From a candidate division LCP-89 bacterium B3_LCP (GTDB lineage Bacteria > Electryoneota > B3-LCP), in contig NJBN01000016.1 in the NCBI GenBank assembly GCA_005223185.1, positions 1 through 48,248 on the forward strand: a stretch of DNA of 48,248 nucleotides, written 5' to 3'. Under the pieces are notes generated by a model. The model was not told the origin of the DNA and ran no database searches. It saw only the letters and a list, made by a program, of their open reading frames with translations. How positions within the stretch are numbered: position 1 is the stretch's first letter; each line of letters starts with the position of its first letter. This document shows positions 11,378-35,498 of the stretch, piece by piece. A program made the position numbers and the translations under genes.

Positions 11378-14300
11378 CTATTTCATCAGCACCATCTTAC
11401 CGGTAGCATTAAACTCACCAGCTTCAAGGTGATATAGGTATATGCCTGATGCTAATTCAGAAGCATTGAAAATCGTTTCATGCACCCCCGCATCCCGCCA
11501 GCCGTTGACCAGTTTTGCGACTTCTCGTCCTGAAATGTCATAGACCGTAAGATTAACCAGACTTGACACTGGTAACTTATAATTGAGAACTGTAGCAGGA
11601 TTGAATGGATTAGGGTAGTTCTGTCCCAGGCTGAATTCTTCGGGAATTGTTCCATCAACTGCAGTGGTATTGATGAATTCAGAGAAGGGATCTGGGAAGC
11701 TGCAGGTTGGTAAATTAGCTTCGAAGTCATAATCTAAATCCACAGCGCCTTCCTTTATCCAGGAAAAGGCATCCGTATGCCATATTTCGTATTCAGGATG
11801 CCAGCCTGAGTAAATTCGAAATTCATAGTTACCGCCCGGCCAACCAACAGGAACCGGGTACCAGGCATCCGGGCGGTTGATCTGCCAGCCGGGCTGGTAA
11901 TTGGTGATTTCGCGCAAAATAAGAGTGGTTGTATCCGTGTTTTCGTAAATTTTGTCAATCCAGATGTCATAATCCAGAGGTACCGATCCCTGATTTTCAC
12001 CCCATATGCCGTAATACAAATTCCCGCCACCAGTTGGAATAGGTGATCCTGACACGTAATCAACTTCAACTACCATCTGGGGGACTCCCGCAGTGTCTGT
12101 AGTGAAGAGAATCGCCATGCCTTCATCGATGGCGCTGGCATTGGTATGATAGGCTTGGTTGTATAGGTATTGAATGCCGTCATCTTCCGATTGGTTTTCG
12201 ATCCCCACCGTGCAGGAACTGCTGTTGTCCAATATTCCATACTGGAAGAGTATCATGCCATCGCCGGTTGAAGTCTGATAGATTAAAGGATCGTACAACA
12301 CCACTTCAAAAGTCAGGTTAGCCCAGGAGGGCCAGTAATCCCGCACTTCATTGAACTCGATTATATATAATCCCTGCCCGGAATCGTGGTAGTAACTCAC
12401 CGTTCCTTCCTGCTGTGGCGATAGATCTTCCCAGAAGGGAGCGATCATGTTGGGGGGTCCGTCTTCATCGGGAATGGGTGAATTGGAATGGTTGGTGTTT
12501 TCAGTGTACCCAAAGGCAATCCAGCCGTTAGAACATACTGAAATTTCACTGAACGTCTGTCCGTAATAGACGAACGTAAATGGAAGAGTCAGATGCATCG
12601 TTTCATCATCATTGGTATAATTCAGCAGACTGCCGGATCCACCCTGGTTGGGATCAATTTCGATCCAGTTGTAGGTGGGCCCGTAGGGTTCATCGTTGAT
12701 GTCATAAGCGCTATATCCGTAATTATCAGGTCCACTGGGCAGGTAGGTAATGTCGCCTATATCCATTGAGAAGTCCAAATAATCGATCCAGCCGCCGGCT
12801 GCCTGGTACGTTAAGGTGAAATCAGCCTGGAAATAGGGAGGCGCTGATCCTGAGGCGTTAACGCCGAAATCCTGAGTTCCCTGTCCACCGGGTTGTATGG
12901 TGCCGTACGATTGAGTAGGCGTGGGGATAGTGATATAGGGGCTGGTGCAGGAGAGGGTAGTGTTCAGGTTTCCCGCCTGGTACGATCCTTCATTGCTCAA
13001 TGTGATTTCGAAATCTGTATTCTCGCCGGGTTCTAATACTCCGTTGCCGTTACCACCGAAAGAATCATCAACTACGAGTTCATCAAGGTGGATTTCCGGT
13101 GCGTGCGCTATCATCTGCACTATGCTGATCCATTCCCGGGATCCGGAGGTCATAACCACAGTGACGTCAAAGAGGTGTTCATCCGGAACGTCAAGGGCTA
13201 TGTCAGCCGCGAAAGCATTCACCACTTCTACCGTATCTCCGGTGTTGATAGTACCGTAGTTTTCCTGCCAGTCGCTGAAGGATATATACGGATCTGATTC
13301 CTGCAGAACCACATCAACCGATGGAGCTGCTGCACCTCCAGCATTTATCACCGGGATGGTTAGAAGGATGGATTCTCCGTATTCAATCTGACCGTTATTG
13401 TTCCCTTGTGAATCATCGATAGTGACTCCGTCTGCAGTGAGATATGGTTCAACTGCGCCGTTGGGTACTGCCAAATCTGCAACTGCCCCCAACAACGCTT
13501 CCAGTACGTGAATGGCATAAGGCGTGTCAAGGTGTTCCATCAAGTCATTGACAGAATGATAGAAGGGATTCAGGTCCGGTCCCCAAGCTTCGTCTTCCAT
13601 AGCCAGAACCGCCGGAATTCCCGCATCCCAGAAGGAGGCGTGATCTGCATAAACCATACTCGGATCCAGGATTGTTACCGGTTCCAAAAAGCCTGTCACA
13701 AAAGCAGTGATCGCCTCGTTGATCTTATTGGCGATGGCAACAGAATTGGGGTCGTTGTTAGAATATATCACTATATCCGGCGGCCAGGGATCCGATCCCG
13801 GCCAGCCTATCATGTCAGCATCGACGACGCCTAAGTAGTTCTCATTCCCCCCGGGCAGGTTGCTGGTGTACGCCTGGCTTCCTAACAGACCCTGTTCGTT
13901 GCCAGCGAAGACAGCGAAGCGAATTGTTTTATGAAAGCTGAAACCGGAAGAGAGAACACGCGCACATTCCAGTACAGCAGCAGTACCGGATCCGTCATCA
14001 TCGGCGCCGGGAGCTTCGTCTTCCGGAAATATGGGAAGACCTGCAGTGGCGTCATGGTGTGCGATGATGTAATATATATCATCCGGTTCTGCGGTTCCAG
14101 TCAGTTCTGCAGTAACGTTATATCTCCACAAACCACCGACCTGAAAGCTGTCCAGCCAGGCGGTCAAACCCATAGCCTGAAATTGTCCCAGGATGTACAA
14201 CGCGGCATCATCACATTCCGGGTTGTAGGTGTTGCGGGTGATGAAATCTTCCAAAGGCTGCAGGTAATCTTCATAGGAAACAGATGACACTTCGTCTAAG

Positions 14301-14779
14301 ATGACGCCCACAAACGGATTCATGTCATCAAGGTTATCAGGGGGATTAAGTTGTTCTCTAATCGGATAACTATCTGCAGAGATGGCTCGGAATGGGATAT
14401 TGGCAGAGCAGAGATCAGATAAAACTGCATCACTGCCGTTTATGAGTATAAAATCATCAGTTTCAAATATGATAGACGAATCAGAAACTTCAAGACCCAC
14501 ATCGCGAAGACTTCGCCTGTCAACTTGATAGACGTTGCTGAAGTCCGATATCCCGTCTGAGAGCAGGGCGATTTCATCGCATTTCCGGATATTAGTCGAT
14601 TCCGGCATCATGCCGATCAAATAATCACCACAACGAGCGTGTAGCTTGAAATCCAATGATTCAAGTTCTTCCAGATCATTCGCCAGATGACCGGATATGA
14701 CAACCGGTATGTATCCCCCGGAGAGCGCCGTGTTACAGATCAGCGCCAGTAAAATTATTAACCCACTGCATATGCGCAT
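11378..14779 (-). CDS. Secreted M28-family metallopeptidase with type IX sorting domain
   Basis: 1133 residues. Signal peptide about 1-20. Residues about 160-440 carry the M28 zinc aminopeptidase pattern: H242 (AHHDAT), D260-D262 (GADDDGSG), E295 (GNEQGLLGS), D322 (DADMIGW) and H408 (FYHSVNDL). In most M28 enzymes two adjacent glutamates occupy the GEE position, the first being the general base; here it is N294, so activity is uncertain. After this come two CARDB-like beta-sandwiches (about 450-680), a larger beta-rich region with PFTFVYYGQTFSEISVCSNGW (about 730-900), and the sorting domain (about 1055-1133, NPFNPATVLNYKLP to GKMVLMK). It should act at the cell surface or outside the cell in peptide breakdown. 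A modest AGAGG site precedes the start. Confidence 0.85.
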   Translation of the reverse strand: MRICSGLIILLALICNTALSGGYIPVVISGHLANDLEELESLDFKLHARCGDYLIGMMPESTNIRKCDEIALLSDGISDFSNVYQVDRRSLRDVGLEVSDSSIIFETDDFILINGSDAVLSDLCSANIPFRAISADSYPIREQLNPPDNLDDMNPFVGVILDEVSSVSYEDYLQPLEDFITRNTYNPECDDAALYILGQFQAMGLTAWLDSFQVGGLWRYNVTAELTGTAEPDDIYYIIAHHDATAGLPIFPEDEAPGADDDGSGTAAVLECARVLSSGFSFHKTIRFAVFAGNEQGLLGSQAYTSNLPGGNENYLGVVDADMIGWPGSDPWPPDIVIYSNNDPNSVAIANKINEAITAFVTGFLEPVTILDPSMVYADHASFWDAGIPAVLAMEDEAWGPDLNPFYHSVNDLMEHLDTPYAIHVLEALLGAVADLAVPNGAVEPYLTADGVTIDDSQGNNNGQIEYGESILLTIPVINAGGAAAPSVDVVLQESDPYISFSDWQENYGTINTGDTVEVVNAFAADIALDVPDEHLFDVTVVMTSGSREWISIVQMIAHAPEIHLDELVVDDSFGGNGNGVLEPGENTDFEITLSNEGSYQAGNLNTTLSCTSPYITIPTPTQSYGTIQPGGQGTQDFGVNASGSAPPYFQADFTLTYQAAGGWIDYLDFSMDIGDITYLPSGPDNYGYSAYDINDEPYGPTYNWIEIDPNQGGSGSLLNYTNDDETMHLTLPFTFVYYGQTFSEISVCSNGWIAFGYTENTNHSNSPIPDEDGPPNMIAPFWEDLSPQQEGTVSYYHDSGQGLYIIEFNEVRDYWPSWANLTFEVVLYDPLIYQTSTGDGMILFQYGILDNSSSCTVGIENQSEDDGIQYLYNQAYHTNASAIDEGMAILFTTDTAGVPQMVVEVDYVSGSPIPTGGGNLYYGIWGENQGSVPLDYDIWIDKIYENTDTTTLILREITNYQPGWQINRPDAWYPVPVGWPGGNYEFRIYSGWHPEYEIWHTDAFSWIKEGAVDLDYDFEANLPTCSFPDPFSEFINTTAVDGTIPEEFSLGQNYPNPFNPATVLNYKLPVSSLVNLTVYDISGREVAKLVNGWRDAGVHETIFNASELASGIYLYHLEAGEFNATGKMVLMK

Positions 14780-15122: not shown

Positions 15123-15497
15123 TTAAGCAAGGTAGGTTAAAGACTCTGGGACCTCTCGCATGTCATTATCACTGGTAGGGAGATATATCTGAGTGACTTG
15201 AAGTGTACTATGGCCGAGGAAGTCTTTTATTTTATGAGGTGGGGTGCCCTGATTAGCCAAGGTTGTAGCACAGGCATGCCTTAAGTAATGCAGATGCAAT
15301 TCCTCTCGGAGCCCCGCTTTTCGTTGGTAGAACTTGAAACGCCTTGAAATGTATCCTGCTGTGTAGTTAAAGAGTCCCGGCTTGGAATGATCAAGAGCCA
15401 TAATGATCTGCATCAATTCAATGCAGATAGGGATAACACGATCATTAGCAATATAAGTGTTTATAGCTGTCGAATTTTCACTGAAAACTGAATCCGA
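15123..15497 (-). pseudogene. Truncated tyrosine recombinase (integrase) C-terminal part
   Basis: The frame is open from just after a TGA at 15498 to the stop at 15123, about 124 codons with no plausible start. It encodes the second half of a tyrosine recombinase catalytic domain: NDRVIPICIELMQII strand region, LHYLRHACATTLANQG (Arg II box), IKDFLGHSTLQVTQIYL (His/Trp box and nucleophile Tyr). The first catalytic arginine and the whole DNA-binding N-terminal domain are missing. It looks like the remains of an element integrated at the adjacent tRNA-Glu. A TTG at 15416 could start a short product, but this could not be an active recombinase. Confidence 0.8.
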
Positions 15498-15760
15498 TCA
15501 ATAACCCGCTATCGAGAAAAAGAGGGCGGTATTAGAACAGCATGTTAATATTGATTTGGGGAGATGTGAGGAATTAGATGCTCCTGAGTGATCTTTGGGT
15601 TTAAAACCCAAAAGTCATTTAATTATTGTATTTAATCCAGTTAATTATTTATACATCTGAGAATCTGATGTCTTGCATTCCTCCCCATAAAGCGCTTGCA
15701 AAATGAGCTTAATTCCTTTATCTTGATTAGTGATTGATTCAGGCTCAGGACACAAGATAC
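15498..15760. other. Intergenic region before the sigma-54 activator
   Basis: No gene is seen. It contains a near-perfect palindrome TTTGGGTTTAAAACCCAAA (15594-15612) that could be an operator, in AT-rich surroundings. No convincing promoter for the activator gene was assigned. Confidence 0.4.
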
Positions 15761-17173
15761 ATGAAGACTAACCCCGATCCAGCAGATAAGAAAGGGAATA
15801 ATAGGCGATCTACAGGCACTCCGCAAGATAACCGTTTTTTTAAGGTCATCCTAAGCTCCATCGCCGATGGAGTGTTTACTGTGGATAAAGATCGCGTTGT
15901 GACCAGTTTCAATCCAGCGGCTGAACGTATCACTGGCGTACCGGCTTCGGTAGCGGTGAGCAAGAAGTGTTACGAAGTATTTCATTCTAATATCTGCGAA
16001 GATAACTGCCTCCTCGAAAGGACCCTGAACACGGGCGAAGAAGCGATTGACATCCCCGTACAGATATTAAACAATTCCGGACGGCGCATACCCATTTCCA
16101 TTTCGACAGCTGTCCTTCGAGACGAAGACGGACAGGTATTAGGCGCCGTGGAAACTTTCCGGGATCTTTCCGCAATCGAGGTTCTCCGCAAGGATCTTGA
16201 ACGCAGCTACAGCTTCGAAGATATTATATCGAAAAGCCCCACAATGATGAAGCTCTTTGCCATTCTTCCTGATGTGGCAGAGAGTGAAAGCACCGTATTG
16301 ATCCAGGGTGCTTCCGGGTCTGGTAAAGAACTTTTTGCCCGAGCGGTTCACAATCTTTCACCACGCAAGGACAAATCCTATATCATAATCAATTGTGGTA
16401 CTCTTCCCACTACGTTGTTCGAATCTGAGCTGTTTGGATACCTGAAAGGTGCATTTACCGATGCCAAGAAGGACAAACCCGGAAAAATATCTTTAGCGGA
16501 AGGAGGTACGGTCTTCCTTGATGAAGTGGGTGATCTTCCCCTTCAAACCCAGGTCAAACTACTTCGACTATTGCAACATCATGAATATGAACCCGTTGGA
16601 GGTCTCAAATCAATAAAAGCTGACATCCGTATCGTGGCCGCTACTAACCGTGATTTGAAAGGAATGGTTACCAAAGGAAGCTTCCGGGAAGACCTTTATT
16701 TCAGATTAGCTGTTATTCGCTTCGAAATTCCGCCCCTGAAAGAACGTCGCGAAGATATCCCCTACCTGATTGACCACTTCATGCGCCGTTTCAATGCCCG
16801 CAAAGGGAAAAATCTGATTGGAGTCAGCCCTAAAGCCATGGAAGCGTTGATGCGCCATAATTATCCGGGCAACGTCCGCGAACTTGAAAATGCTATCGAG
16901 TATGGTTATGCTGTTTGTAGAGGGCGCATTATTGAGTTTGATCATCTTCCTGAAGAGATACAATCTGCATTATCCCAATCAACATCTGATCCAGAAAGCC
17001 TTTCTGAACTTCATCCTGCCCATCGCCACATAAGTGAAGAGATTGCCATTAGAGAAGCTCTTAAACGTAGAAAAGGTAACCGCACCTTAGCCAGCGGCGA
17101 TCTTGGAATGGATCGCACTACCCTCTGGCGTAAGATGCGGCGCTATGGCATCCAGATCCCCAAGAACAGTTAA
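15761..17173 (+). CDS. PAS-domain sigma-54-dependent transcriptional activator
   Basis: 470 residues from the ATG at 15761; a TTG nine codons upstream is possible but has no better ribosome site. Residues about 25-145 are a PAS domain with a cysteine group (KKCYEVFHSNICEDNC). Residues about 150-390 are the AAA+ domain: Walker A GASGSGKE with K189, the loop GAFTDA (230-235) in place of the usual GAFTGA, Walker B TVFLDEVG, and the sensor region ATNRDLK. Residues about 425-465 form a Fis-type helix-turn-helix (LASGDLGMDRTTLWRKMRRYG). It has no receiver domain, so the PAS domain is the likely sensor. Family members bind upstream dyads and drive open-complex formation by sigma-54 polymerase. A sigma-54 promoter with GTTGCA/TGCAAC dyads directly downstream suggests it controls the operon beginning at 17392. 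Confidence 0.92.
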   Translation: MKTNPDPADKKGNNRRSTGTPQDNRFFKVILSSIADGVFTVDKDRVVTSFNPAAERITGVPASVAVSKKCYEVFHSNICEDNCLLERTLNTGEEAIDIPVQILNNSGRRIPISISTAVLRDEDGQVLGAVETFRDLSAIEVLRKDLERSYSFEDIISKSPTMMKLFAILPDVAESESTVLIQGASGSGKELFARAVHNLSPRKDKSYIIINCGTLPTTLFESELFGYLKGAFTDAKKDKPGKISLAEGGTVFLDEVGDLPLQTQVKLLRLLQHHEYEPVGGLKSIKADIRIVAATNRDLKGMVTKGSFREDLYFRLAVIRFEIPPLKERREDIPYLIDHFMRRFNARKGKNLIGVSPKAMEALMRHNYPGNVRELENAIEYGYAVCRGRIIEFDHLPEEIQSALSQSTSDPESLSELHPAHRHISEEIAIREALKRRKGNRTLASGDLGMDRTTLWRKMRRYGIQIPKNS

Positions 17174-17201
17174 TTCCATCCCCTCAAATACACCTACAAA
17201 C

Positions 17202-17258
17202 GTTGCAGTGCAACATACACACGTTGCAATCCTCTTATATGGTTGCATTAAGTGCAAC
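17202..17258 (+). promoter_or_regulatory. GTTGCA/TGCAAC dyads, probable activator binding sites
   Basis: Two dyads occur: GTTGCAGTGCAAC (17202-17214) and GTTGCA-TTAAG-TGCAAC (17242-17258), plus a single GTTGCA at 17223-17228. The GTTGCA starts are 21 and 19 bases apart, so they lie on one face of the helix. The group is 55-110 bases upstream of the -24/-12 promoter, the usual place for enhancer sites. A further TGCAAC lies at 17367-17372, downstream of the promoter. Confidence 0.7.
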
Positions 17259-17278
17259 AATCAGCCAGCATATATTGG

Positions 17279-17299
17279 TTATAACATATTGTGTTATAA
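17279..17299. promoter_or_regulatory. Perfect inverted repeat TTATAACA-TATTG-TGTTATAA
   Basis: Eight-base arms with a five-base centre, between the activator dyads and the -24 element. It may be an operator for a second regulator or a DNA-bending site. Confidence 0.5.
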
Positions 17300-17313
17300 T
17301 TAATTACGATGGT

Positions 17314-17329
17314 TGGCATCATATTCGCT
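17314..17329 (+). promoter_or_regulatory. Sigma-54 (-24/-12) promoter
   Basis: TGGCATCATATTCGCT has the invariant GG (17315-17316) and GC (17327-17328) exactly ten bases apart; consensus is TGGCAC-N5-TTGC. Transcription should start near 17340, about 50 bases before the first gene of the electron-transfer operon. Confidence 0.7.
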
Positions 17330-17391
17330 AAATACTGTAGAAATTATCTGATAACGGATTTTACCCTGCAACATAACCATTATTCCCACAC

Positions 17392-18192
17392 GTGCACAAG
17401 CATAACCAAATACCCGGAACATTTGAGAACGGTGTATATATCACTCGGATAGCCATCAGTTGCTTCGGTGAAGAGATCGCACCGCGCTTTGATAACGCCC
17501 GCCGTTTTCGCTGTTGGGAGATTAGCAATAATGAAGCGAAAGACTACCCGGGAATCTCTGCTGAAGAAACAGATGGTCTTTACAGAGTTAAGCTACTACG
17601 ACGCAGCCGTATACACGTGTTAATATGCAACGGTATCGAAGAACGTTACCGGGAGATGCTTGAAGTGGATGGTTGTTATGTTGTAGATGGTGTTACTGGT
17701 TCCGCTCTTCATGCACTTTCCGATTTCCTGGAAGGCCGGCTGCAACAGCGTTTCCATGGAGAATCGCTCCCACATGGAGAAATATTGCCACATACCGCTG
17801 AATTAGTGTTATGGACGGGGGACTTGTTCAGAACTCTGGGGTGGGATGTTCAACAGCCAGCAAAACCAAATATTTTTCCGATTGACCTGCTGGCGCAACG
17901 TTCATGCCCCTTCTGCCAAAAACCGGTGAACGTGGCAATCTGCTGTGGTGCTCATTCATACCGGATTCATGAAGAAATCAAGGAGTTGAAACGAGTCACT
18001 GCTTCAAGCTATAACGCCAGGGTTTTCGTTCATCGTGCTGTTGCAGGTATTGAAGACATTTGTAAGGACTTCGAAATAGAACTTGTAGATCCTGATGATT
18101 ACACCAGTGACGCCCTGGATCAAGAAAGTCGCAGCTCCTTGCCGCCCTTAAGGGGGATAGTCATTGGACATGAGAAATTGAACGCTAACTGA
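17392..18192 (+). CDS. NifX-like (FeMo-cofactor-binding family) protein with C-terminal cysteine domain
   Basis: 266 residues. Residues about 17-120 match the dinitrogenase iron-molybdenum cofactor family (ITRIAISCFGEEIAPRFDNA, VLICNGIEERYREML, VVDGVTGSALHALSDFL), whose members bind metal-sulfur clusters. The C-terminal part (about 165-255) has C-x2-C (CPFCQKP) and a CC pair (ICCGAHSYRIHEEIK), probably a metal site of its own. No nif genes lie here. Related proteins sit in sigma-54-controlled operons of sulfate reducers (the ORP complex), so assembly or redox sensing is more likely than nitrogen fixation. The GTG at 17392 has no good ribosome site and the true start may lie slightly downstream. 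It is the first gene of the operon. Confidence 0.65.
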   Translation: MHKHNQIPGTFENGVYITRIAISCFGEEIAPRFDNARRFRCWEISNNEAKDYPGISAEETDGLYRVKLLRRSRIHVLICNGIEERYREMLEVDGCYVVDGVTGSALHALSDFLEGRLQQRFHGESLPHGEILPHTAELVLWTGDLFRTLGWDVQQPAKPNIFPIDLLAQRSCPFCQKPVNVAICCGAHSYRIHEEIKELKRVTASSYNARVFVHRAVAGIEDICKDFEIELVDPDDYTSDALDQESRSSLPPLRGIVIGHEKLNAN

Positions 18193-18208
18193 TACTTCGA
18201 GAACTAGC

Positions 18209-19669
18209 ATGCAGATTAAAGTTATCACAGGTGAAGAGAGAGAAAAGGCTTTCGCTTGCCCAAAACCGCCCGAAGTAATAGATAAACAGAAACTTCCGGT
18301 TCGTTATCACGTTGAAGACTTCGACGTTAAAGACAGACCTCAGCGATTTTTGGAAGCTTTTGCTGCCATTCTAAAGCATACGAACTACCGTTTAGCTCTC
18401 GATCACTATATAAGGGTCAGTGCCAAATGTTCGCGATGCACAACGAATTGTCAGGTGTACTTGGCTACAGGCGATGATGACGATATACCGTGCAAGCGTT
18501 CTGAATTGCTTTTGTCTGTATATCGCCGCCACTTTACCATTGCCGGTGTGCTGAAAGGTCGTTTGACGGGAAATATCGGATTGACTGATGAACATATACA
18601 GGAAATAGCTGATTCCTTCTGGAATTGTACTGCTTGCAGGCGCTGTATTCTTGAATGCCCCATGGGCATCGATCACGGTATGATCACTCACCTGGGACGC
18701 TACATACTCTCGGAAATCGGCATTACCCCCCGAGCTTTGGTCGTCAGCACGAGAGAACAACTGCTCGGCGCAACAGGCAATACCTCCGCTATCCCAGTAC
18801 CTGCTCTTATAGATACTTTAGAATTCCTGTCAGAAGACATGGAGGAGGAGAAAGGAATAGAAATTCCCTTCCCAATTGACCAGGAGGGCGCAGAATATCT
18901 CTTTCTTCCTGCGGTTTCTGATTTCATGATGGAAGCAGATACGCTTATGGGTAATGCTGCAGTTTTTCGGGCCACAGGTGATAGTTGGACCGTTGGTACC
19001 GGATATTATGACGGGATCAACTACGGTCTTTTTTACAGCGATCATGTTCTGGAAAAAGTTCTCCTGAAAATCAAGGCGGAAGCGGAACGTTTGAAGATTA
19101 AAAAGATCCTGATCGGCGAATGTGGCCACGCATCGAGGAGTGCCAAGTTCTTCTATCCAGCTTACTGTGGTGGAAAGAATGCCTTACCTGTGATAAACAT
19201 CCTGGAATATACACACCAGGTATGGAAAGAAGGTCGCCTGAAATTGGACCCCAATGTGATCACGGAGAGAGTAACATATCACGATCCTTGTAATATAGCC
19301 AGGCCGGGCTGGATCGTGGATCAGCCGCGAGAACTTCTGAAGGCATTTTGCAGGGATTACGTGGAGATGACGCCTTCAGGTCGTGACAACATCTGTTGTG
19401 GTGGCGGCGGCGGCACTGTCTCCATAGACGAAATCAGACCATACAGGACGGCAATCGGCGGTAAAGCTAAAGCTGAACAGATCAGGGCAACAGGAGCCAA
19501 ATACTGCGTAGCTCCCTGTGCCAACTGCAAGAAGCAGTTAAAAGAGCTTATGGAAGATAATAATGTGGACTGTGAAATAGTCGGTCTGCATGATCTTTTA
19601 TACAAAGCAATCATCTTTGAGGGAGCTAAGAATCCCGTGAATGAAGAAGAGAAAGTTCAGGATAAATAG
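18209..19669 (+). CDS. Heterodisulfide reductase-like (DsrK/TmcB/HmcF type) Fe-S protein
   Basis: 486 residues. Two cysteine groups bind [4Fe-4S] clusters near residues 74-95 (CSRCTTNC plus a later C) and about 140-151 (CTACRRCILECP). The C-terminal half carries a CCG domain: HDPCNIARPG, ICCGGGGGT and APCANCKKQL, which in HdrD holds the active-site noncubane cluster and in DsrK/TmcB is thought to handle thiol/disulfide or quinol electrons on the cytoplasmic side. It starts 16 bases after the NifX-like gene and precedes the cytochrome b subunit, the order seen in Tmc, Hmc and Dsr complexes. No dsrAB, apr or qmo gene lies in the window, so a link to sulfate reduction cannot be claimed. Confidence 0.85.
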   Translation: MQIKVITGEEREKAFACPKPPEVIDKQKLPVRYHVEDFDVKDRPQRFLEAFAAILKHTNYRLALDHYIRVSAKCSRCTTNCQVYLATGDDDDIPCKRSELLLSVYRRHFTIAGVLKGRLTGNIGLTDEHIQEIADSFWNCTACRRCILECPMGIDHGMITHLGRYILSEIGITPRALVVSTREQLLGATGNTSAIPVPALIDTLEFLSEDMEEEKGIEIPFPIDQEGAEYLFLPAVSDFMMEADTLMGNAAVFRATGDSWTVGTGYYDGINYGLFYSDHVLEKVLLKIKAEAERLKIKKILIGECGHASRSAKFFYPAYCGGKNALPVINILEYTHQVWKEGRLKLDPNVITERVTYHDPCNIARPGWIVDQPRELLKAFCRDYVEMTPSGRDNICCGGGGGTVSIDEIRPYRTAIGGKAKAEQIRATGAKYCVAPCANCKKQLKELMEDNNVDCEIVGLHDLLYKAIIFEGAKNPVNEEEKVQDK

Positions 19670-19695
19670 CTGGCACAATACGGAGGAAATATACA

Positions 19696-20466
19696 TTGCA
19701 AGCATGGATAGAGTTCGGGCAGGGACCACTTTTCAGGTTATGCTTCGTCCTGATGATTCTGGGATTAATCCGCATCTTCATCCTGACCATAATCGGGATG
19801 GTCGAAGCATTGAACCGCAATACTGATAAAATCGTCCCATACCGGGATTTGATTCAAAAAACACTGATGTGGTTATTTCCCATAAAGCACCTGTGGACGA
19901 AAAGACCGTTCTACGGATTAATTTCGGTTTTATTCCATGTGGGACTGCTTATCGTACCTCTATTTCTCGCCGCTCATGTATTGATGTGGAAAAATTCCGT
20001 CGGTTTTGCGTGGTTTTCTATTCCTCGTGGCTTAGCTGACTGGTTGACTATAATAGTCATTGTAACCGGTATAGTTTTATTTCTAATGAGAGCCAGTAGT
20101 AAAGCCGGCCGGGCTTTGAGTCGCAAACAGGACTATATCTGGCCCTTGCTTTTAGTAGTGCCATTTATCACTGGCTATATTTGTTCAAACAGCGCTATAG
20201 GACCTGCTGCATATCAGCTTATGATGATGGTGCATGTTTATTCAGCAAACTTAATCATGCTGATGATTCCTTTCACCAAAATTGCGCACTGTATTTTGGT
20301 ACCGCTATCGCAGTTGGTCACTGCTATCAGTTGGAAGTTTCCTGCTGGTGCCGGTGATATGGTGATAGAGACTCTTGGCTACAAAGAATACCCCACTTGG
20401 GTGAAGAAACCCAGATTAGAGACACCGGTTGAGCTGAAGGTTAAAGAGGAGATCAACGCGGAATGA
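19696..20466 (+). CDS. NarI-like membrane cytochrome b subunit (DsrM/TmcC/HmcE type)
   Basis: 256 residues with about five membrane helices, in the pattern of the respiratory nitrate reductase gamma family. Histidines in or next to helices (for example FHVGLLIVPLFLAAH and MVHVYSANL) are candidate heme b ligands. A TTG start is chosen because GGAGG lies nine bases upstream. The stop overlaps the next start by four bases (ATGA), which indicates translational coupling. It should exchange electrons between the quinone pool and the cytoplasmic CCG protein encoded just upstream. Confidence 0.85.
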   Translation: MQAWIEFGQGPLFRLCFVLMILGLIRIFILTIIGMVEALNRNTDKIVPYRDLIQKTLMWLFPIKHLWTKRPFYGLISVLFHVGLLIVPLFLAAHVLMWKNSVGFAWFSIPRGLADWLTIIVIVTGIVLFLMRASSKAGRALSRKQDYIWPLLLVVPFITGYICSNSAIGPAAYQLMMMVHVYSANLIMLMIPFTKIAHCILVPLSQLVTAISWKFPAGAGDMVIETLGYKEYPTWVKKPRLETPVELKVKEEINAE

Positions 20467-21233
20467 AAGCGATATTAACCGATACGACCAAGTGCATCGG
20501 CTGCCGTGAATGCGTGATAGCATGCAAGAAGACCTATAATCTCGAAGAGGAAGTACCACGCCGGTGGAGTTCCGATGACGGTCTCTCGTCTCGCAACTGG
20601 ACTTCGATTATCCAGAAACCGGAGGGTAAATTTATCCGTAAGCAATGCCGCCATTGTTTACAGCCAGCGTGTGTCTCCGCGTGCCCGGTAGGAGCTCTTC
20701 GGAAAACATCTGAAGGTGCGGTAATTTACGACAGTAAAAAATGTATAGGATGTCGTTATTGCATGATGGCTTGTCCGTATGGTATTCCGCGGTACGATTG
20801 GGATCAGCCGGTGCCGTACGTTCGTAAATGTATCCTCTGTTATGACCGCATTACTCAAGGGAAACAACCTGCCTGCACGGAAGCGTGTCCCACAGAAGCG
20901 ACCATCTTTGGCGATCGCCAGGAACTCTTAGGCGAAGCGCATCGCCGCTTAAAGGAAACCCCGGATAAATATATCGACAGAGTATGGGGGGAGAAAGAAG
21001 TGGGCGGTACCCAGGTATTATATATCTCTGATATAGACCTGTCCTGCCTGACGTACGGAAGACCTTTGGGAGAGAAACCATTACCAACCCGAACGGCAAC
21101 CGCGATGAATGCTGTGCCCTATACTTTCGTGGGGATGTCAGCGACTATGGCTGGAATTAGTTGGATCATAGGGCGGCGAATGAAGATCCAGGAGAAACCG
21201 GGGGACGATCAAAGGGAAGATAACGATGAATAG
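20463..21233 (+). CDS. Four-cluster ferredoxin subunit (HmcB/DsrO/DmsB type) with C-terminal membrane helix
   Basis: 256 residues. Four cysteine groups for [4Fe-4S] clusters are visible: CIGCRECVIAC (from residue 11), CRHCLQPACVSACP, CIGCRYCMMACP and CILC with CTEACP. No Tat or Sec signal is seen at the N-terminus. A hydrophobic stretch at about 218-240 (YTFVGMSATMAGISWIIG) could anchor it. It overlaps the cytochrome b gene by four bases and the NrfD gene by eight. In related complexes this subunit carries electrons between the NrfD subunit and the other redox modules; which side of the membrane it faces here is not certain. Confidence 0.88.
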   Translation: MKAILTDTTKCIGCRECVIACKKTYNLEEEVPRRWSSDDGLSSRNWTSIIQKPEGKFIRKQCRHCLQPACVSACPVGALRKTSEGAVIYDSKKCIGCRYCMMACPYGIPRYDWDQPVPYVRKCILCYDRITQGKQPACTEACPTEATIFGDRQELLGEAHRRLKETPDKYIDRVWGEKEVGGTQVLYISDIDLSCLTYGRPLGEKPLPTRTATAMNAVPYTFVGMSATMAGISWIIGRRMKIQEKPGDDQREDNDE

Positions 21234-23136
21234 GATTTACACATTCAAAACAATTCTCTGGACAATATTGGGTTTCGGTGCCGCGGTAGGTACCGCACGA
21301 TTTATCTACGGATTGGGTGTTACGACCAATCTCTCGGATTCTGTACCATGGGGTTTATGGATCGGTTTTGACGTTATGGGCGGCGTAGCACTGGCAGCAG
21401 GAGGGTTTATCTTAACAGCGACGGTTTACATATTCAGGTTGGAGAAATTTCATGGGATCGTCCGCCCAGCCGTATTGACGGCGTTCTTAGGATATATTGC
21501 TGTCGCCGTAGGATTACTGTTCGACCTTGGTTTGCCTTGGAACATCTGGCACATGATCATATTCTGGAACCCTCACTCGCCGCTTTTCGAAGTTGGTTGG
21601 TGTGTTATGCTTTATCTAACTGTGCTGTTGTTGGAATTCTTCCCTATCCCTGCTGAAGAATTTAGCAAACTCAACAAATTGCGTAATTTCCTGTTAAAGC
21701 TTCGTCTGCCGCTTGTTATTGCCGGCATTGCTCTATCGACGCTTCATCAATCATCGTTAGGTTCGCTGTTCCTGATCATGCCATACAACGTGCATCCTTT
21801 ATGGTATTCACCAATTTTACCTGTGCTGTTCTTCATCTCCGCCATCACACTTGGCTTGATGATGGTTTCCTTTGAGAGCAAATTCACCTCCTGGCTCTAT
21901 CGCCGCGAAACAGAAACCGATCTACTGGCTAAACTTTGCTCAGCAGCGCGATGGGTTTTTCTAATTTATATTATTGTGAGGTTTGGCGATCTCGCCTTCA
22001 GAGGTCAGTTAGGACATTTGGGCGGTGGTGAATGGCAGGTAGTGATGTTCTGGGTTGAGATTGCAATTACGGCACTTATTCCGGTGATTTTGTTATCAAT
22101 CCCAAAGATTAGAATCGCCCCTGTGTGGCAGTGGATTATTCCTATGATGAGCATCTTCGGAATTGTATTAAACCGGATCAATGTCGGCGGATTGGTGCAC
22201 ATCAACCGTGGTAATACGCTTTATTTGCCATCCTTGACCGAGATTACCATCAGCGCCAGCGTGGTAGCGGGCGCAGCACTTGTCTTCCTTTACATGGTCG
22301 AACGTTATAAGATATGGGAAAAGAGACCTGCCGATCCCAATACTGATCCTACTAAAATTCCAGAATTTGACTTTGCCAGCCGGACCTCCCTGGGAACGCC
22401 TGAAGTCGCCTTGAGAACAAAATATTCACTTGCTTTTATCCTGGCAGCAGCGGTTGGTTTTGCGCTATTATCGACCGAGAATCTCTCCAGCGCGGGAACA
22501 GAATCCTCACCGGCGAAAGAGGCACGCGGGTGGGAAACCATGTGGATCGATGGTGATCTTGATGGTGAAGGTACTGCTTTTCCGCACGCTAAACATATAG
22601 ATAATAACGGCAAGGAAAAATCATGTGTTTTATGTCACCATATGAATCTTCCCCTGGACAATAGCTCACAGTGCTCCGCCTGTCACCGTGATATGTACCT
22701 CCTAAGTGATGCTTTCGGACATGACCGGCATGCTTCCGCATCTGGCGCAGGGTTAAAATGTTTTGATTGTCATAAGAAAGACCTGACTAAAAATGCAGAT
22801 ACGGCGAAACCCTGTAAAGACTGTCATGGCGATTTGGTGGCGGAAGGTTCCACTATCACCGTCGAGAATTACAGAACAATTGGATATGTCGAATCCATGC
22901 ACAGATTATGTATCGGATGTCACAGCCAGAAAGCTGATTCGCTTGAAAAACCCGATCTCCCGCGTTGTGCCAACTGTCATAAGGAAAAGCGGACGATAAT
23001 TTCTCCTGATGCGGGTGTACACCCTCACCAATATGGCGCTGAAAAGGATAATGTCATTTTTCCAATTGTAAGCTATAATTCTGAGCAACCACCGGATACA
23101 ACTAATACTGGATCTGCCGTTGAAAACAGCCGGTAA
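21226..23136 (+). CDS. NrfD/HybB-like membrane protein fused to a hexaheme cytochrome c domain
   Basis: 636 residues. Residues about 1-365 form an eight-to-ten-helix NrfD/HmcC/HybB quinone-interacting subunit (for example VPWGLWIGFDVMGGVALAAG and LHQSSLGSLFLI). A further helix at about 400-420 (LAFILAAAVGFALLS) leads into a hydrophilic domain with six CXXCH heme motifs from C467 to C581: CVLCH, CSACH, CFDCH, CKDCH, CIGCH and CANCH, in the class III cytochrome c style. In Hmc and Tmc complexes the multiheme cytochrome is a separate protein, so this fusion ties the periplasmic electron port directly to the membrane subunit. It overlaps its upstream neighbour by eight bases and the kinase gene downstream by 17. 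Confidence 0.9.
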   Translation: MNRIYTFKTILWTILGFGAAVGTARFIYGLGVTTNLSDSVPWGLWIGFDVMGGVALAAGGFILTATVYIFRLEKFHGIVRPAVLTAFLGYIAVAVGLLFDLGLPWNIWHMIIFWNPHSPLFEVGWCVMLYLTVLLLEFFPIPAEEFSKLNKLRNFLLKLRLPLVIAGIALSTLHQSSLGSLFLIMPYNVHPLWYSPILPVLFFISAITLGLMMVSFESKFTSWLYRRETETDLLAKLCSAARWVFLIYIIVRFGDLAFRGQLGHLGGGEWQVVMFWVEIAITALIPVILLSIPKIRIAPVWQWIIPMMSIFGIVLNRINVGGLVHINRGNTLYLPSLTEITISASVVAGAALVFLYMVERYKIWEKRPADPNTDPTKIPEFDFASRTSLGTPEVALRTKYSLAFILAAAVGFALLSTENLSSAGTESSPAKEARGWETMWIDGDLDGEGTAFPHAKHIDNNGKEKSCVLCHHMNLPLDNSSQCSACHRDMYLLSDAFGHDRHASASGAGLKCFDCHKKDLTKNADTAKPCKDCHGDLVAEGSTITVENYRTIGYVESMHRLCIGCHSQKADSLEKPDLPRCANCHKEKRTIISPDAGVHPHQYGAEKDNVIFPIVSYNSEQPPDTTNTGSAVENSR

Positions 23137-24595
23137 AACAAATTCACCGGAAGCCCTGCAGTCTCTACTCAAAGGGCAACTCTTCGATATAGTACCTTTC
23201 GGCGTTGCAGTCATCGATAGGAATATGAATATCGTTACCGCGAACCACAACTTTGAAGAGTATTTTGGTAAGAGGGAAAAACAGCACTGTTACGAAGTTT
23301 GTAAGGGGCTTCAGGAGCAGTGTCCGCAATGCAACGCCAAATACACCTTCGAAGATGGAAAACCCCGCGTATCTGATGAAAGGGGTGTTGACTTTCATGG
23401 CCGCACCTGCCATTATGTGGTGCATGTTGCGCCGCTCTTTAACGATAATGGTGACGTCGAATACGTCGTTGAAATGACGACAGATATGACGGAGACGAGA
23501 ATTCGTCAACGTGAATACAACCTTCTCTTTGAGCGAGTTCCTTGTTTTGTCACTATTATTAATCGAGATTTTGAGATCGTCCGTGCGAACGAGAAATTCC
23601 GCAACACATTTGGTGATGCTCGGGGTAAACACTGCTACGTTGCCTACAAAAATCGGGAAACAACCTGTCCGGACTGCCCGGCAGCTCTTACTTTTAAGGA
23701 TGGTGAGGAACGTGTGGCTACCCAAACCGGTGTTTCCCAGGATGGAAAGGAAACACACTATGTCGTAACCACGGCTCCTCTGGGTCGCAGTCCGGGTGAA
23801 GTAGCTCATGTCATCGAGATATCTGCCGACATATCGCAGGTCAAGGAGTTGGAAAAGGAGATGTTGGACGCCGAACGTCTGGCGGCTGTAGGGCAAACGG
23901 TAGCTGGATTGGCACACACCATTAAGAATCTGTTGATGGGTTTGGAAGGTGGTATGTATATGATGGATAGCGGTCTTCAACAAGTCGATCCGGAACGCAT
24001 TGCAGAAGGGTGGGATGTGCTCCAGAGAAATTTTGATAAAACAGTTGCACTGGTTAAAGATTTCTTAAGCTTTTCCAAAGGCAGGCTACCAGTTCTTAAA
24101 GAAACGGATACCAACGCTCTGGTTACTTCCATAGTGGAACTCTACCGTGACGCTGCAAAAAAACAGGATGTTGAGCTAATTCATAAAAAAAATAAACAAA
24201 AGCTGACAGCTCTTCTTGATCCTGATGGTATAGAAGCATGTCTCACCAACCTTGTTTCAAACGCAATCGATGCCGCAATGACGCGTGAAGAAGGGGGCGC
24301 TCGTGTCACCATAAGAAATTATGAAAGCGAAAATGCGGTTATCTTTGAAGTTACTGACAACGGTTGTGGGATGGATTGGGAAGTCAAACAGAAAGTTTTC
24401 ACCACTTTCTTTACAACCAAAGCAAGCAAAGGAACCGGATTGGGGTTACTTACTACGAGAAAAATTGTGCAGGAACACGGTGGGAGTATTGAGGTGGATT
24501 CGGAGGTCGGTGCAGGATCGACGTTCCGGATCCGTCTGCCCAGGGAACGACTGGAACTTATTGCTGAGGAAGCAAACAAGGCAAATTCAAATTAG
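23120..24595 (+). CDS. Double-PAS sensor histidine kinase
   Basis: 491 residues. Two PAS domains (about 20-125 and 135-240) each contain a cysteine set: HCYEVCKGLQEQCPQC in the first, HCYVAYKNRETTCPDCP in the second. The same motif occurs in the PAS domain of the sigma-54 activator upstream. The dimerisation helix holds the phosphoacceptor H266 (GLAHTIKNLLMG). The ATPase domain (about 350-480) has N box NLVSNAIDAA, G1 DNGCGMD and G2 GTGLGLLTTRKIVQEHGG. No membrane helix is seen, so it is cytoplasmic and probably reads a redox or metal signal. The TTG start lies within the end of the NrfD gene and has no strong ribosome site, so coupling is likely. Confidence 0.9.
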   Translation: MKTAGKTNSPEALQSLLKGQLFDIVPFGVAVIDRNMNIVTANHNFEEYFGKREKQHCYEVCKGLQEQCPQCNAKYTFEDGKPRVSDERGVDFHGRTCHYVVHVAPLFNDNGDVEYVVEMTTDMTETRIRQREYNLLFERVPCFVTIINRDFEIVRANEKFRNTFGDARGKHCYVAYKNRETTCPDCPAALTFKDGEERVATQTGVSQDGKETHYVVTTAPLGRSPGEVAHVIEISADISQVKELEKEMLDAERLAAVGQTVAGLAHTIKNLLMGLEGGMYMMDSGLQQVDPERIAEGWDVLQRNFDKTVALVKDFLSFSKGRLPVLKETDTNALVTSIVELYRDAAKKQDVELIHKKNKQKLTALLDPDGIEACLTNLVSNAIDAAMTREEGGARVTIRNYESENAVIFEVTDNGCGMDWEVKQKVFTTFFTTKASKGTGLGLLTTRKIVQEHGGSIEVDSEVGAGSTFRIRLPRERLELIAEEANKANSN

Positions 24596-24641
24596 CAGGA
24601 AACAGTCTGTAAAAGAAAAGTCTTAATGAGGAAGAGATATC

Positions 24642-25160
24642 ATGAACGTCACTAATAAATACGTCCTGGTAGTCGATGACGAAGAGGATGTACGCAACTA
24701 CTTGAAAACTGCGCTTCAAGATGCAGGCTTTCGAGTGGTCACCGCCGGTGACGGCTTCGAAGCAATAGAAATGGTCAAAAAAGAGGTGCCCGACCTGATC
24801 TCATTAGATTTGGTTATGCCCAAGAAATCCGGTGCTATGTTTCACCGGGAACTGAAAAAAAACAAAGAATGGGCGAAAGTGCCGGTTCTGATTGTCACCG
24901 GTCACGCTCATGACGATCTGGGCAAGGCTGACCTGGAAGAGTTAACTATGTCTGGACCGGGCATCTATCTTGAAAAACCTGTGAGTCCTAAAGCTTATGT
25001 GAAAGCAGTATGCCAACTCCTGAACATCGATCCTCCAAAAACCGGCGCGGTAGAAGGAGAAAAACCTAAAGAAGATCAATTGAGATCAGAACTGTTCCAG
25101 AAATTAAATAAAGCGGATAGCGAAGCGTTAAAACGCGCGCTAAAAGCGCTGAAGAAGTAA
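24642..25160 (+). CDS. Response regulator receiver protein with short C-terminal helix
   Basis: 172 residues. One CheY-like domain (about 5-125): acidic pocket VVDDEEDVR, phosphoacceptor D56 (LISLDLVMPKKSG), VTGH switch region and K in YLEKPVSP. The C-terminal 45 residues are charged and helical with no recognised output domain. A GAGGAAGAGA ribosome site precedes the ATG. It follows the kinase gene by 46 bases and is its likely partner; it may act by protein contact or phosphotransfer. Confidence 0.9.
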   Translation: MNVTNKYVLVVDDEEDVRNYLKTALQDAGFRVVTAGDGFEAIEMVKKEVPDLISLDLVMPKKSGAMFHRELKKNKEWAKVPVLIVTGHAHDDLGKADLEELTMSGPGIYLEKPVSPKAYVKAVCQLLNIDPPKTGAVEGEKPKEDQLRSELFQKLNKADSEALKRALKALKK

Positions 25161-25193
25161 CTATTACTGAAGCTTAAAATAAGGAGATATATC

Positions 25194-25586
25194 GTGGCTA
25201 ATCCGGAAAAGAAAACCATCCTCATCGTTGATGATGAACCCGACGTTCTGAAGTATCTGACCACTTATCTTGAAGACAACGGGTTTGCGACTATCAGTGC
25301 TGTGGATGGAAGGGACGGTTTCCAGAAAGCAAAAGAAAGCCTTCCAGATCTCATTACACTCGATATCACTATGCCGGAAGAGTCCGGTGTGAGAATGTTT
25401 CGTAATCTGCAGGATGACGAAAAACTGCGAAATATTCCTGTGGTAATAATAACGGGAATATCGAGTGAGTTTGAACATTTCATCAAAACGCGCAAACAGG
25501 TTGATCCACCGACAGCATATTTTGAAAAACCGATCGATCGAAGCGAATTACTAGGCAAGATCAAAGAAATCCTGAAAATGATATAA
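25194..25586 (+). CDS. Single-domain response regulator receiver protein
   Basis: 130 residues, a receiver domain only: VDDEPDVLKYL, phosphoacceptor D57 (LITLDITMPEESG), IITG and K in YFEKPIDR. The start is GTG with AAGGAG seven to eight bases upstream. It is related to the preceding receiver and probably arose by duplication. Two receivers without DNA-binding domains beside one kinase suggest a phosphorelay or protein-level control; a link to the sigma-54 activator, which lacks a receiver, is not shown. Confidence 0.88.
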   Translation: MANPEKKTILIVDDEPDVLKYLTTYLEDNGFATISAVDGRDGFQKAKESLPDLITLDITMPEESGVRMFRNLQDDEKLRNIPVVIITGISSEFEHFIKTRKQVDPPTAYFEKPIDRSELLGKIKEILKMI

Positions 25587-25608
25587 CTACATTACGGGAG
25601 AGATAAAA

Positions 25609-25830
25609 ATGAAAAAACGGCAGTTTGAATGCAAGGATTGCGGGCACGCCTGGGAAGAGACCTTCGGAACGGGAAGACCTGAAGGATGCCCCTCCTGCAA
25701 TTCAGTAAACATATATCGAACTGACTCTGGGCCACGTCGATTAGGGCAATGTAAAGGTGGACCGAGCGGTAGAGGATCTGACAAATTAAAAAAGGCAGAT
25801 AATAAGGATTTGCCAAAATCTGAGGGATAA
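25609..25830 (+). CDS. Small zinc-ribbon protein
   Basis: 73 residues. Two cysteine pairs, C8-x2-C11 and C27-x2-C30, form a rubredoxin- or zinc-ribbon-like knuckle (FECKDCGHAWEETFGTGRPE). The tail is basic, glycine-rich and probably disordered. Similar small ribbons accompany NifX/ORP-type proteins. A GGGAGAG ribosome site precedes the ATG. It lies three bases before the next gene, so the two are probably made together. Confidence 0.7.
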   Translation: MKKRQFECKDCGHAWEETFGTGRPEGCPSCNSVNIYRTDSGPRRLGQCKGGPSGRGSDKLKKADNKDLPKSEG

Positions 25831-25833
25831 GAA

Positions 25834-26220
25834 ATGAGAATAGCAATACCGTCTGATGAAGGTACCAACATTGCAGCGCACACGGGACGAGCAGGAGGTT
25901 TCGTGATCTATGACATAGATAATAACCAGGCTGCACGGGTTGAATATCGCAGTAATACTTTCACCGCCCATGCAAAAGGTGAATGCAACGGTGAAGAGAA
26001 TCAAAAACATCACGCGCACAGCGATCATGGTGAACTCTTAGACGCCTTGCATGATTGCCAGGTGATGATTGCACGAGGGATGGGTCCTCGTCTGGTAATG
26101 GATTTAGCCAGACGGAATATCGAAGTGGTATTCTGTGAAAGTGATGTTGCAGATACAGCGGCGCAGCAATACGCAGCAGGCGAGCTCATGAATACGGGGA
26201 AAAGCTCCTGTGATCATTAG
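25834..26220 (+). CDS. NifX/NifB-like iron-molybdenum cofactor family protein
   Basis: 128 residues, a single domain of the dinitrogenase iron-molybdenum cofactor family: MRIAIPSDEGTNIAAHTGRA, FVIYDIDNN, a histidine-rich insert (HHAHSDHGELLDALHDC), ARGMGPRLVMDLARRNIEV and a tail ending CDH. The cysteines and histidines could bind a metal cluster. The family includes NifX, NafY and the orange protein of sulfate reducers. It is the last large gene of the operon, which therefore has NifX-like proteins at both ends. GAGGGA lies just upstream of the ATG. Confidence 0.82.
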   Translation: MRIAIPSDEGTNIAAHTGRAGGFVIYDIDNNQAARVEYRSNTFTAHAKGECNGEENQKHHAHSDHGELLDALHDCQVMIARGMGPRLVMDLARRNIEVVFCESDVADTAAQQYAAGELMNTGKSSCDH

Positions 26221-26725: not shown

Positions 26726-26751
26726 GCCTTAATGAGGTGATAGTATCCATT

Positions 26752-35477: not shown

Positions 35478-35498
35478 GGAGTATATAGGGAGTATATG
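35478..35498 (+). promoter_or_regulatory. Duplicated ribosome-binding segment
   Basis: AGGGAGTATAT occurs twice in tandem (12-base period) just before the ATGATG start of the beta-lactamase-fold gene. The second GGGAG is six bases from the ATG at 35499, which favours that start over 35496. The duplication may affect translation efficiency. Confidence 0.45.

Follow-up and report, generated by a model that had tools for sequence, protein, structure and literature searches.

The region 17202–17329 of the window (the whole 48,248-nucleotide stretch of DNA analysed here, from a candidate division LCP-89 bacterium) is, in our assessment, highly likely to comprise the enhancer and promoter of a sigma-54-dependent redox operon, which would be switched by the activator encoded at 15734–17173 in response to a signal that is probably redox. 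The rarity of the sites, their co-occurrence with the activator, the near-fixed spacing, the presence of a sigma-54 gene and the conservation of the cysteines were computed, and it is from these that we infer DNA binding, activation, the start site and redox sensing. According to the model, the activator would bind several GTTGCA/TGCAAC half-sites on one face of the DNA, within 17202–17258, and reach across a 56-bp AT-rich spacer to the sigma-54 RNA polymerase held at 17314–17329; its ATPase would then open the promoter, and transcription would start near 17340 and run into the Hmc-like redox operon. The signal would probably be the cellular redox state, which three conserved PAS cysteines would read, perhaps by way of an iron-sulphur cluster of the sort attributed to OrpR of Desulfovibrio vulgaris. 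The first-pass annotation of this DNA had suggested a sigma-54 control region served by the adjoining activator, and the comparative data strongly support such a prediction: the half-sites track the activator across phyla, including two cases in which the activator gene is unlinked, the enhancer–promoter distance is near-fixed, and there is a Sigma54_DBD gene in the genome. Since the layout recurs in distant bacteria, the prediction is directly testable. For lineages represented here almost entirely by metagenomes, it offers a precise regulatory assignment that links one operon to its box, promoter and activator.

Table 1. Control features and genes predicted in the window
Feature	Position	Strand	Basis or remark
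Activator: PAS, sigma-54 AAA+, Fis-type HTH	15734..17173	+	Pfam, NCBIfam, alignment, motifs
Half-site pair 1, GTTGCA-G-TGCAAC (GTTGCAGTGCAAC)	17202..17214	.	Sequence reading
Single half-site GTTGCA	17223..17228	+	21 bp from first half-site
Half-site pair 2, GTTGCA-N5-TGCAAC	17242..17258	.	End 56 bp before -24 GG
Palindrome TTATAACA-N5-TGTTATAA	17279..17299	.	AT-rich spacer; N5 = TATTG
Putative sigma-54 -24/-12 element TGGCATCATATTCGCT, GG-N10-GC	17314..17329	+	Start expected near 17340 (predicted)
Extra half-site TGCAAC	17367..17372	-	In predicted leader, 52 bp past -24 GG
First operon gene, Nitro_FeMo-Co/ORP-type domain with C-terminal extension	17392..18192	+	Pfam, 25.5 bits (cut-off 26.3)
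DsrK/TmcB/HmcF-like CCG iron-sulphur protein (K)	18209..19669	+	Pfam, NCBIfam
HmcE/TmcC-like membrane protein (E)	19696..20466	+	NCBIfam
HmcB-like ferredoxin subunit (B)	20463..21233	+	Pfam, NCBIfam
HmcC/NrfD membrane subunit, fused C-terminal cytochrome with six CxxCH	21226..23136	+	Pfam, NCBIfam, motifs
Histidine kinase, two PAS domains, each C-x10-C-x2-C	23120..24595	+	Pfam, motifs
Response regulator, receiver domain only (DVU0259-like)	24642..25160	+	Pfam, NCBIfam
Response regulator, 130 aa (DVU0259-like)	25194..25586	+	NCBIfam scan only
Second Nitro_FeMo-Co-type (NifX-type) protein, possible last gene	25834..26220	+	Pfam, NCBIfam

The GTTGCA/TGCAAC half-sites in the window and in the genome

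Five GTTGCA/TGCAAC half-sites lie within 17202–17258, flanked by the activator gene (15734–17173) and the redox operon (from 17392); all of the dyads that had been reported between these two are present where the first-pass annotation placed them. The 218-bp intergenic region as a whole contains six half-sites, as compared with a mean of 0.26 and a maximum of three in 5000 shuffled sequences, the sixth (17367) being located downstream of the promoter. A loose scan of the window for the dyad, with three mismatches allowed, gave 17 matches against 19.3 expected. The strict pattern GTTGCA-N0-8-TGCAAC was found at four places in the whole 3.79-Mb genome, two of them in the 17202–17258 region and two within coding genes, which from their translations we take to be a metallophosphoesterase-like gene (L001) and a threonine-aldolase-like gene (L037); the reversed control pattern was found at no place genome-wide. 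Run with this strict pattern, the genome-wide search that had been recommended for defining the regulon returned one operon as an intergenic target. The Hmc-like operon is the only strict-dyad target found in this genome, and a regulon of several operons was rejected because the search, which applies to the strict pattern only, gave no other intergenic place.

The half-sites had also been described as phased, and this holds for the set of 26 regions compared below: 86 distances between half-sites of the same orientation showed a period of ~10.5–10.9 bp (R = 0.31, versus a null mean of 0.12; p = 0.001). The spacing within pairs varies, convergent start distances of 2, 6–8 and 11 being common in the upstream regions of relatives. 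A fixed dyad as the binding unit was rejected since this spacing is too variable, and we describe half-sites rather than one palindrome. Half-sites downstream of the promoter number five, in 4 of 23 regions (the window at 17367–17372, L042, L058 and L053). All five have the TGCAAC orientation and three lie 52–57 bp beyond the -24 GG (p = 0.001, against a mean of 0.47 in shuffled sequences).

The activator, the operon and the nature of the signal

The activator contains a Sigma54_activat domain (PF00158, E = 5.8e-65) with the Walker A motif GSGKE, the Walker B motif VFLDE and the loop GAFTDA, a C-terminal Fis-type HTH (PF02954, E = 1.8e-9), and a PAS domain with one cysteine triad, C79, C88 and C92 (C-x8-C-x3-C). 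Just upstream of its gene, at 15123–15416 on the minus strand, lies a 97-aa piece of a phage-type integrase (PF00589), possibly a trace of past mobility.

Nine co-stranded genes are found downstream of the promoter, from 17392 to 26220. The matches of their products to the NCBIfam Hmc equivalogs miss the cut-offs (HmcB 240 of 420 bits, HmcC 293 of 550, HmcE 123 of 275 and HmcF 199 of 750), and the DsrK model was matched with 300 bits against a curated cut-off of 400. Two of the ten scanned proteins (the activator and the nine operon proteins) matched the MrpORP model, scoring 24.7 and 30.9 bits where the cut-off is 450. Downstream of the operon, the plus strand encodes a protein with the NACHT N-terminal NNH5 domain (26737–28341) and a CHAT-TPR protein with NTPase matches (31447–35319), both of kinds seen in defence or signalling. 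Two secreted-type proteins are encoded at 35496–37397 (plus strand), with a C-terminal Por_Secre_tail, and at 11378–14779 (minus strand), with a C-terminal sorting tail recognised by eye in the translation.

The activator's PAS domain had been said to share a cysteine motif with the kinase of the operon. Conserved triads are present in both proteins, but the motif is not the same (C-x8-C-x3-C versus C-x10-C-x2-C). The triad of the activator, as C-x8-C-x2/3-C, is shared by 52 of the 53 activators placed on the tree described below, and both C-x10-C-x2-C triads are kept in 25 of 25 kinases matching above 400 bits. Comparison of the activator PAS domain with the first PAS domain of the kinase revealed no significant similarity (E = 2.0); homology of these two domains was rejected on this ground, and the shared motif is to be read as an analogy.

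It is conceivable that the switch formed by the activator and sigma-54 is real and that its signal is something other than redox, the PAS cysteines being structural or binding another ligand or a metal. PAS domains bind many ligands, and we give this alternative a substantial, though clearly minority, share of the probability. The conservation of the triads in both the activators and the kinases, the redox complex encoded by the operon, and the [4Fe-4S] PAS domain reportedly carried by OrpR of D. vulgaris, a regulator that is said to answer to redox potential, argue for redox state as the signal.

Co-occurrence of the half-sites with the activator in relatives

Matches to the first operon gene occur in 14 of 61 genomes, the window's own genome counted. 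In 9 of 16 stretches around these matches, one of which (L034) is outside the phylum, the activator is followed by the ORP-type protein, then by K, E, B, the NrfD-cytochrome protein and the kinase; a tenth (L022), which ends after K, agrees so far as its sequence goes. An alignment search with the NrfD-cytochrome protein yielded 236 confirmed stretches, and the best 80 of these were kept. According to their records, the best 80 belong to Zixibacteria, Calditrichaeota, candidate division LCP-89, 'Candidatus Electryonea', Acidobacteria, Ignavibacteria as well as other Bacteroidetes, Myxococcota and further groups. The upstream counts are based on 63 loci: 59 of the best 80 (21 with a co-oriented activator, 4 with a divergent one and 34 without) together with the window, L022, L034 and L031. 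The other 21 of the best 80 were set aside, as the K gene, the K start or enough upstream sequence was missing. The counts leave out the paralogue loci L032 and L033, which were inspected, and also L035.

Where the activator is immediately upstream and co-oriented, at least two half-sites were found in 23 of 24 operons and at least three in 22 of 24, counts that are not independent since the loci are related. The lone exception, L034, has no GTTGCA half-site and four copies of GTTTCA; L040 has two half-sites only. An unbiased hexamer count over the 24 regions ranked GTTGCA first, with at least three copies in 22, the best hexamer of 50 shuffles reaching five regions. Of the 33 operons for which no activator was seen in the neighbourhood, 3 have two or more half-sites (unlinked copies were checked for the genome of one operon). 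These 33 contain 15 half-sites in total, versus a shuffle mean of 6.4 and a maximum of 11, an excess that is partly due to a tandem repeat in L074. Upstream of K in this locus GTTGCA occurs four times, exactly 52 bp apart, which is a repeat and not an enhancer-like cluster. Where the activator is divergent and more distant (44–50% identity), two of the four operons have at least two half-sites.

Seven and five half-sites, respectively, precede the operons L053 and L057, neither of which has an adjacent activator; their genomes (G021 and G030) carry activators of 71% and 67% identity on other contigs, the gene in G030 having an internal stop codon. The genome G015 has an operon with neither sites nor an adjacent activator, and its closest activator reaches only 42%. 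The search for unlinked activators covered 12 chosen genomes. A second type of K-E-B-NrfD operon, found at L144 (G001) and L147 (G021), has divergent activators (47–50% identity) and intergenic GTTGCA clusters, so that the box may reach beyond the clade studied here.

The predicted sigma-54 promoter and its distance from the half-sites

The GG-N10-GC promoter that had been proposed for this region corresponds to TGGCATCATATTCGCT, which agrees with TGGCAC-N5-TTGCW in 9 of 11 letters (two mismatches) and has the exact GG-N10-GC spacing. On its own the match is only moderate (shuffle p = 0.023), and a loose scan of the window for the -24/-12 pattern, with three mismatches allowed, gave 175 matches versus 188 expected. 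The relatives raise its support greatly. With at most two mismatches, a -24/-12 element was found in the last 250 bp of 18 of the 26 activator regions (24 adjacent and 2 unlinked; shuffle mean 0.73, maximum 3) and in 3 of the 33 regions where no activator was seen nearby. A limit of three mismatches allowed an element to be scored in 24 of the 26 regions, and none was found in L040 and L085.

The end of the last half-site lies 63–68 bp from the -24 GG in 14 of the 24 scorable regions (at most 9 in 20,000 trials of random placement, p ~5e-5). The gaps in the window's own family are 56 bp (window), 54 bp (L022), 55 bp (L044) and 56 bp (L040, whose element is poor), that is, one helical turn below those of the main group; the elements of L022, L044 and L040 are weaker than that of the window. 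Seven scorable regions have other gaps, namely 60, 60, 78, 96, 97, 111 and 224 bp. One Sigma54_DBD gene was found in the 3.79-Mb genome, which is 95.8% complete. The promoters of the relatives, together with the near-fixed gap, thus raise the modest match in the window to a confident assignment.

The orp promoters of D. vulgaris require IHF (PMC3897727). In our set, an IHF-like peak was found on the plus strand 35 bp past the last half-site (p = 0.001); the positional signal is ambiguous, as a peak of the same height appears on the minus strand at 22. Exact IHF matches are present in 3 of 22 spacers and absent from that of the window, and the genome contains two HU/IHF-family matches. Mismatch-free -24/-12 elements (TGGCACGGGCGTTGCT and TGGCACGGGTGTTGCT) were seen upstream of K in L101 and L113, annotated as Thermoanaerobaculia/Thermoanaerobaculales, with no GTTGCA and no activator seen nearby; these are probably operons of this kind controlled by a different sigma-54 activator.

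The AT-rich spacer contains the 8-bp inverted repeat of TTATAACA, which is perfect, as the first-pass annotation had stated, and weak when taken alone (shuffle p = 0.047). Overlapping it, TGTTATAAT at 17292–17300 is a possible sigma-70 extended -10 (TG-T-TATAAT). We considered that a sigma-70 promoter at this position drives the operon, with the palindrome as a repressor operator and the activator sites as secondary or intended for another start. The two overlapping elements fit this arrangement and the spacer of L044 also contains TATAAT, but a promoter scan of 16900–17700 found no sigma-70 site, and in the majority of scorable relatives the sigma-54 element and the half-sites are separated by an almost constant distance. 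The palindrome itself was found upstream of none of 15 relatives in a tolerant pattern scan and occurs at a single place in the genome; as a shared operator it is unproven, and its membership in the control logic, which had been assumed, is unsupported. We regard the sigma-70 arrangement as quite improbable and retain the sigma-54 element as the predicted promoter of the operon, beside which a weak second promoter may act.

The activator tree and the half-site code

The activator tree comprised 53 rows, with the HTH left out and rows shorter than 400 residues excluded; it was a quick tree with no bootstrap, and DVU2106 is absent from it. The window activator falls in a 25-row clade (SH-aLRT 99) that splits into 22 GTTGCA rows (support 98) and 3 GTTTCA rows (84). 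Four rows from the MrpORP side (L203, L212, L205 and L214) lie outside this clade.

Three activators, L198 (G044), L201 (G331) and L200 (G292), which form one clade on the tree, have the recognition helix SRTTLWRK. In the 450 bp downstream of their genes GTTTCA/TGAAAC is present in 4, 4 and 6 copies and GTTGCA in 0, 0 and 2, respectively. The residue before the recognition-helix arginine is D, N, E or H in most GTTGCA activators, and L061 reads EQ. This is suggestive of a one-base change of the half-site, from GTTGCA to GTTTCA, tied to a change of the recognition helix, and suggestive only, as the two together represent a single change on the tree.

Recognition of the sites by the activator is predicted from their co-occurrence and from the half-site of the three SRTTLWRK loci. 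That a different regulator binds the half-sites, for instance another of the sigma-54 activators of this genome, numerous at 34 to 36 first-look candidates (at most four candidates per genome were scored), or a partner of the operon's kinase, is very improbable, given that the sites follow this activator clade, the two unlinked cases included, that the next closest activator in the same genome is 40% identical, that GTTTCA is the half-site of the three SRTTLWRK loci, and that the first response regulator is receiver-only by Pfam and the second (130 aa) looks alike, by the NCBIfam scan only.

Two paralogues of the activator, at L033:4462-5817 (G005) and L199 (G002), have Walker A K changed to R, Walker B DE changed to NE, and an AFPEA loop, so ATP hydrolysis or sigma-54 contact has probably been lost. 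GTTGCA/TGCAAC clusters closely follow the L033 gene and closely precede the L199 gene, and the best GG-N10-GC candidate after L033 has three mismatches. These paralogues may have turned into sigma-54-independent regulators.

A broader reading would see here an ancient dedicated redox switch, composed of a cysteine-PAS activator, a GTTGCA code and one electron-transfer operon with a cysteine-PAS kinase, whose geometry (~66 or 56 bp) has been kept across several phyla, and in one lineage of which GTTGCA became GTTTCA together with the recognition helix. We consider this close to an even call, leaning slightly against it. If true, it would amount to a natural experiment on the reading of DNA by Fis-type activators, and the GTTGCA/GTTTCA contrast provides a concrete test of DNA recognition by the Fis-type HTH. 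The box and the spacing can also be used to find redox complexes switched by cysteine-PAS activators.

Comparison with known systems

In the openly licensed literature, no title on this control region was found among the matches listed. GTTGCA together with sigma-54 gave only PMC5506826 among the matches listed, in the excerpt of which GTTGCA appears only inside Acidithiobacillus promoter sequences, and a search for OrpR by name gave only unrelated papers among the matches listed.

OrpR is DVU2106 of D. vulgaris, described in PMC4641369 as a single-component regulator with the GAFTDA motif; our comparison with OrpR and the orp operons draws on PMC3897727 and PMC4641369. Like OrpR, the window activator stands alone, adjoins its target, has the GAFTDA loop and a very small predicted regulon, and has ORP-type proteins nearby; as in the orp operons, palindromic sites lie upstream of a -24/-12 promoter. 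Unlike OrpR, it adjoins the genes of an Hmc-like membrane complex in place of the orp genes. Activators near MrpORP genes served as stand-ins for DVU2106. An activator match was present in 7 of 20 stretches around MrpORP genes, two of which were set aside (one of 41% and a fragment of 37%). The five others lie 0.3–4.9 kb from MrpORP, show 52–56% identity with the window activator and have retained the cysteine triad, the loop being GAFTDA in four and GAFTGA in one. These loci differ from the window in that four of the five lack a GTTGCA pair within 45 bp; L170 has a same-orientation pair. Judged by its neighbourhood and by the tree, the window activator is OrpR-like, a cousin and not OrpR itself.

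In PMC4641369, DVU3142 and ohcBAC of D. vulgaris likewise form a pair of a sigma-54 activator gene and an electron-transfer operon beside it that it is predicted to control, although their orientation is divergent and the complex is another one. By NCBIfam, the subunits encoded in the window resemble those of Hmc, Tmc and DsrMKJOP (HmcB-, HmcC-, HmcE/TmcC- and DsrK/TmcB/HmcF-like) and differ from them in scoring below the curated cut-offs and in the fusion of the NrfD subunit to a six-CxxCH cytochrome. In enhancers of the NtrC and NifA type, too, a Fis-type HTH reads half-sites that lie in pairs upstream of the -24/-12 promoter; the window differs in its half-site, GTTGCA, and in the variable spacing inside the pairs. 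Nothing in what is known of sigma-54 control is overturned by this case, which is distinguished by its unusually clean conserved geometry.
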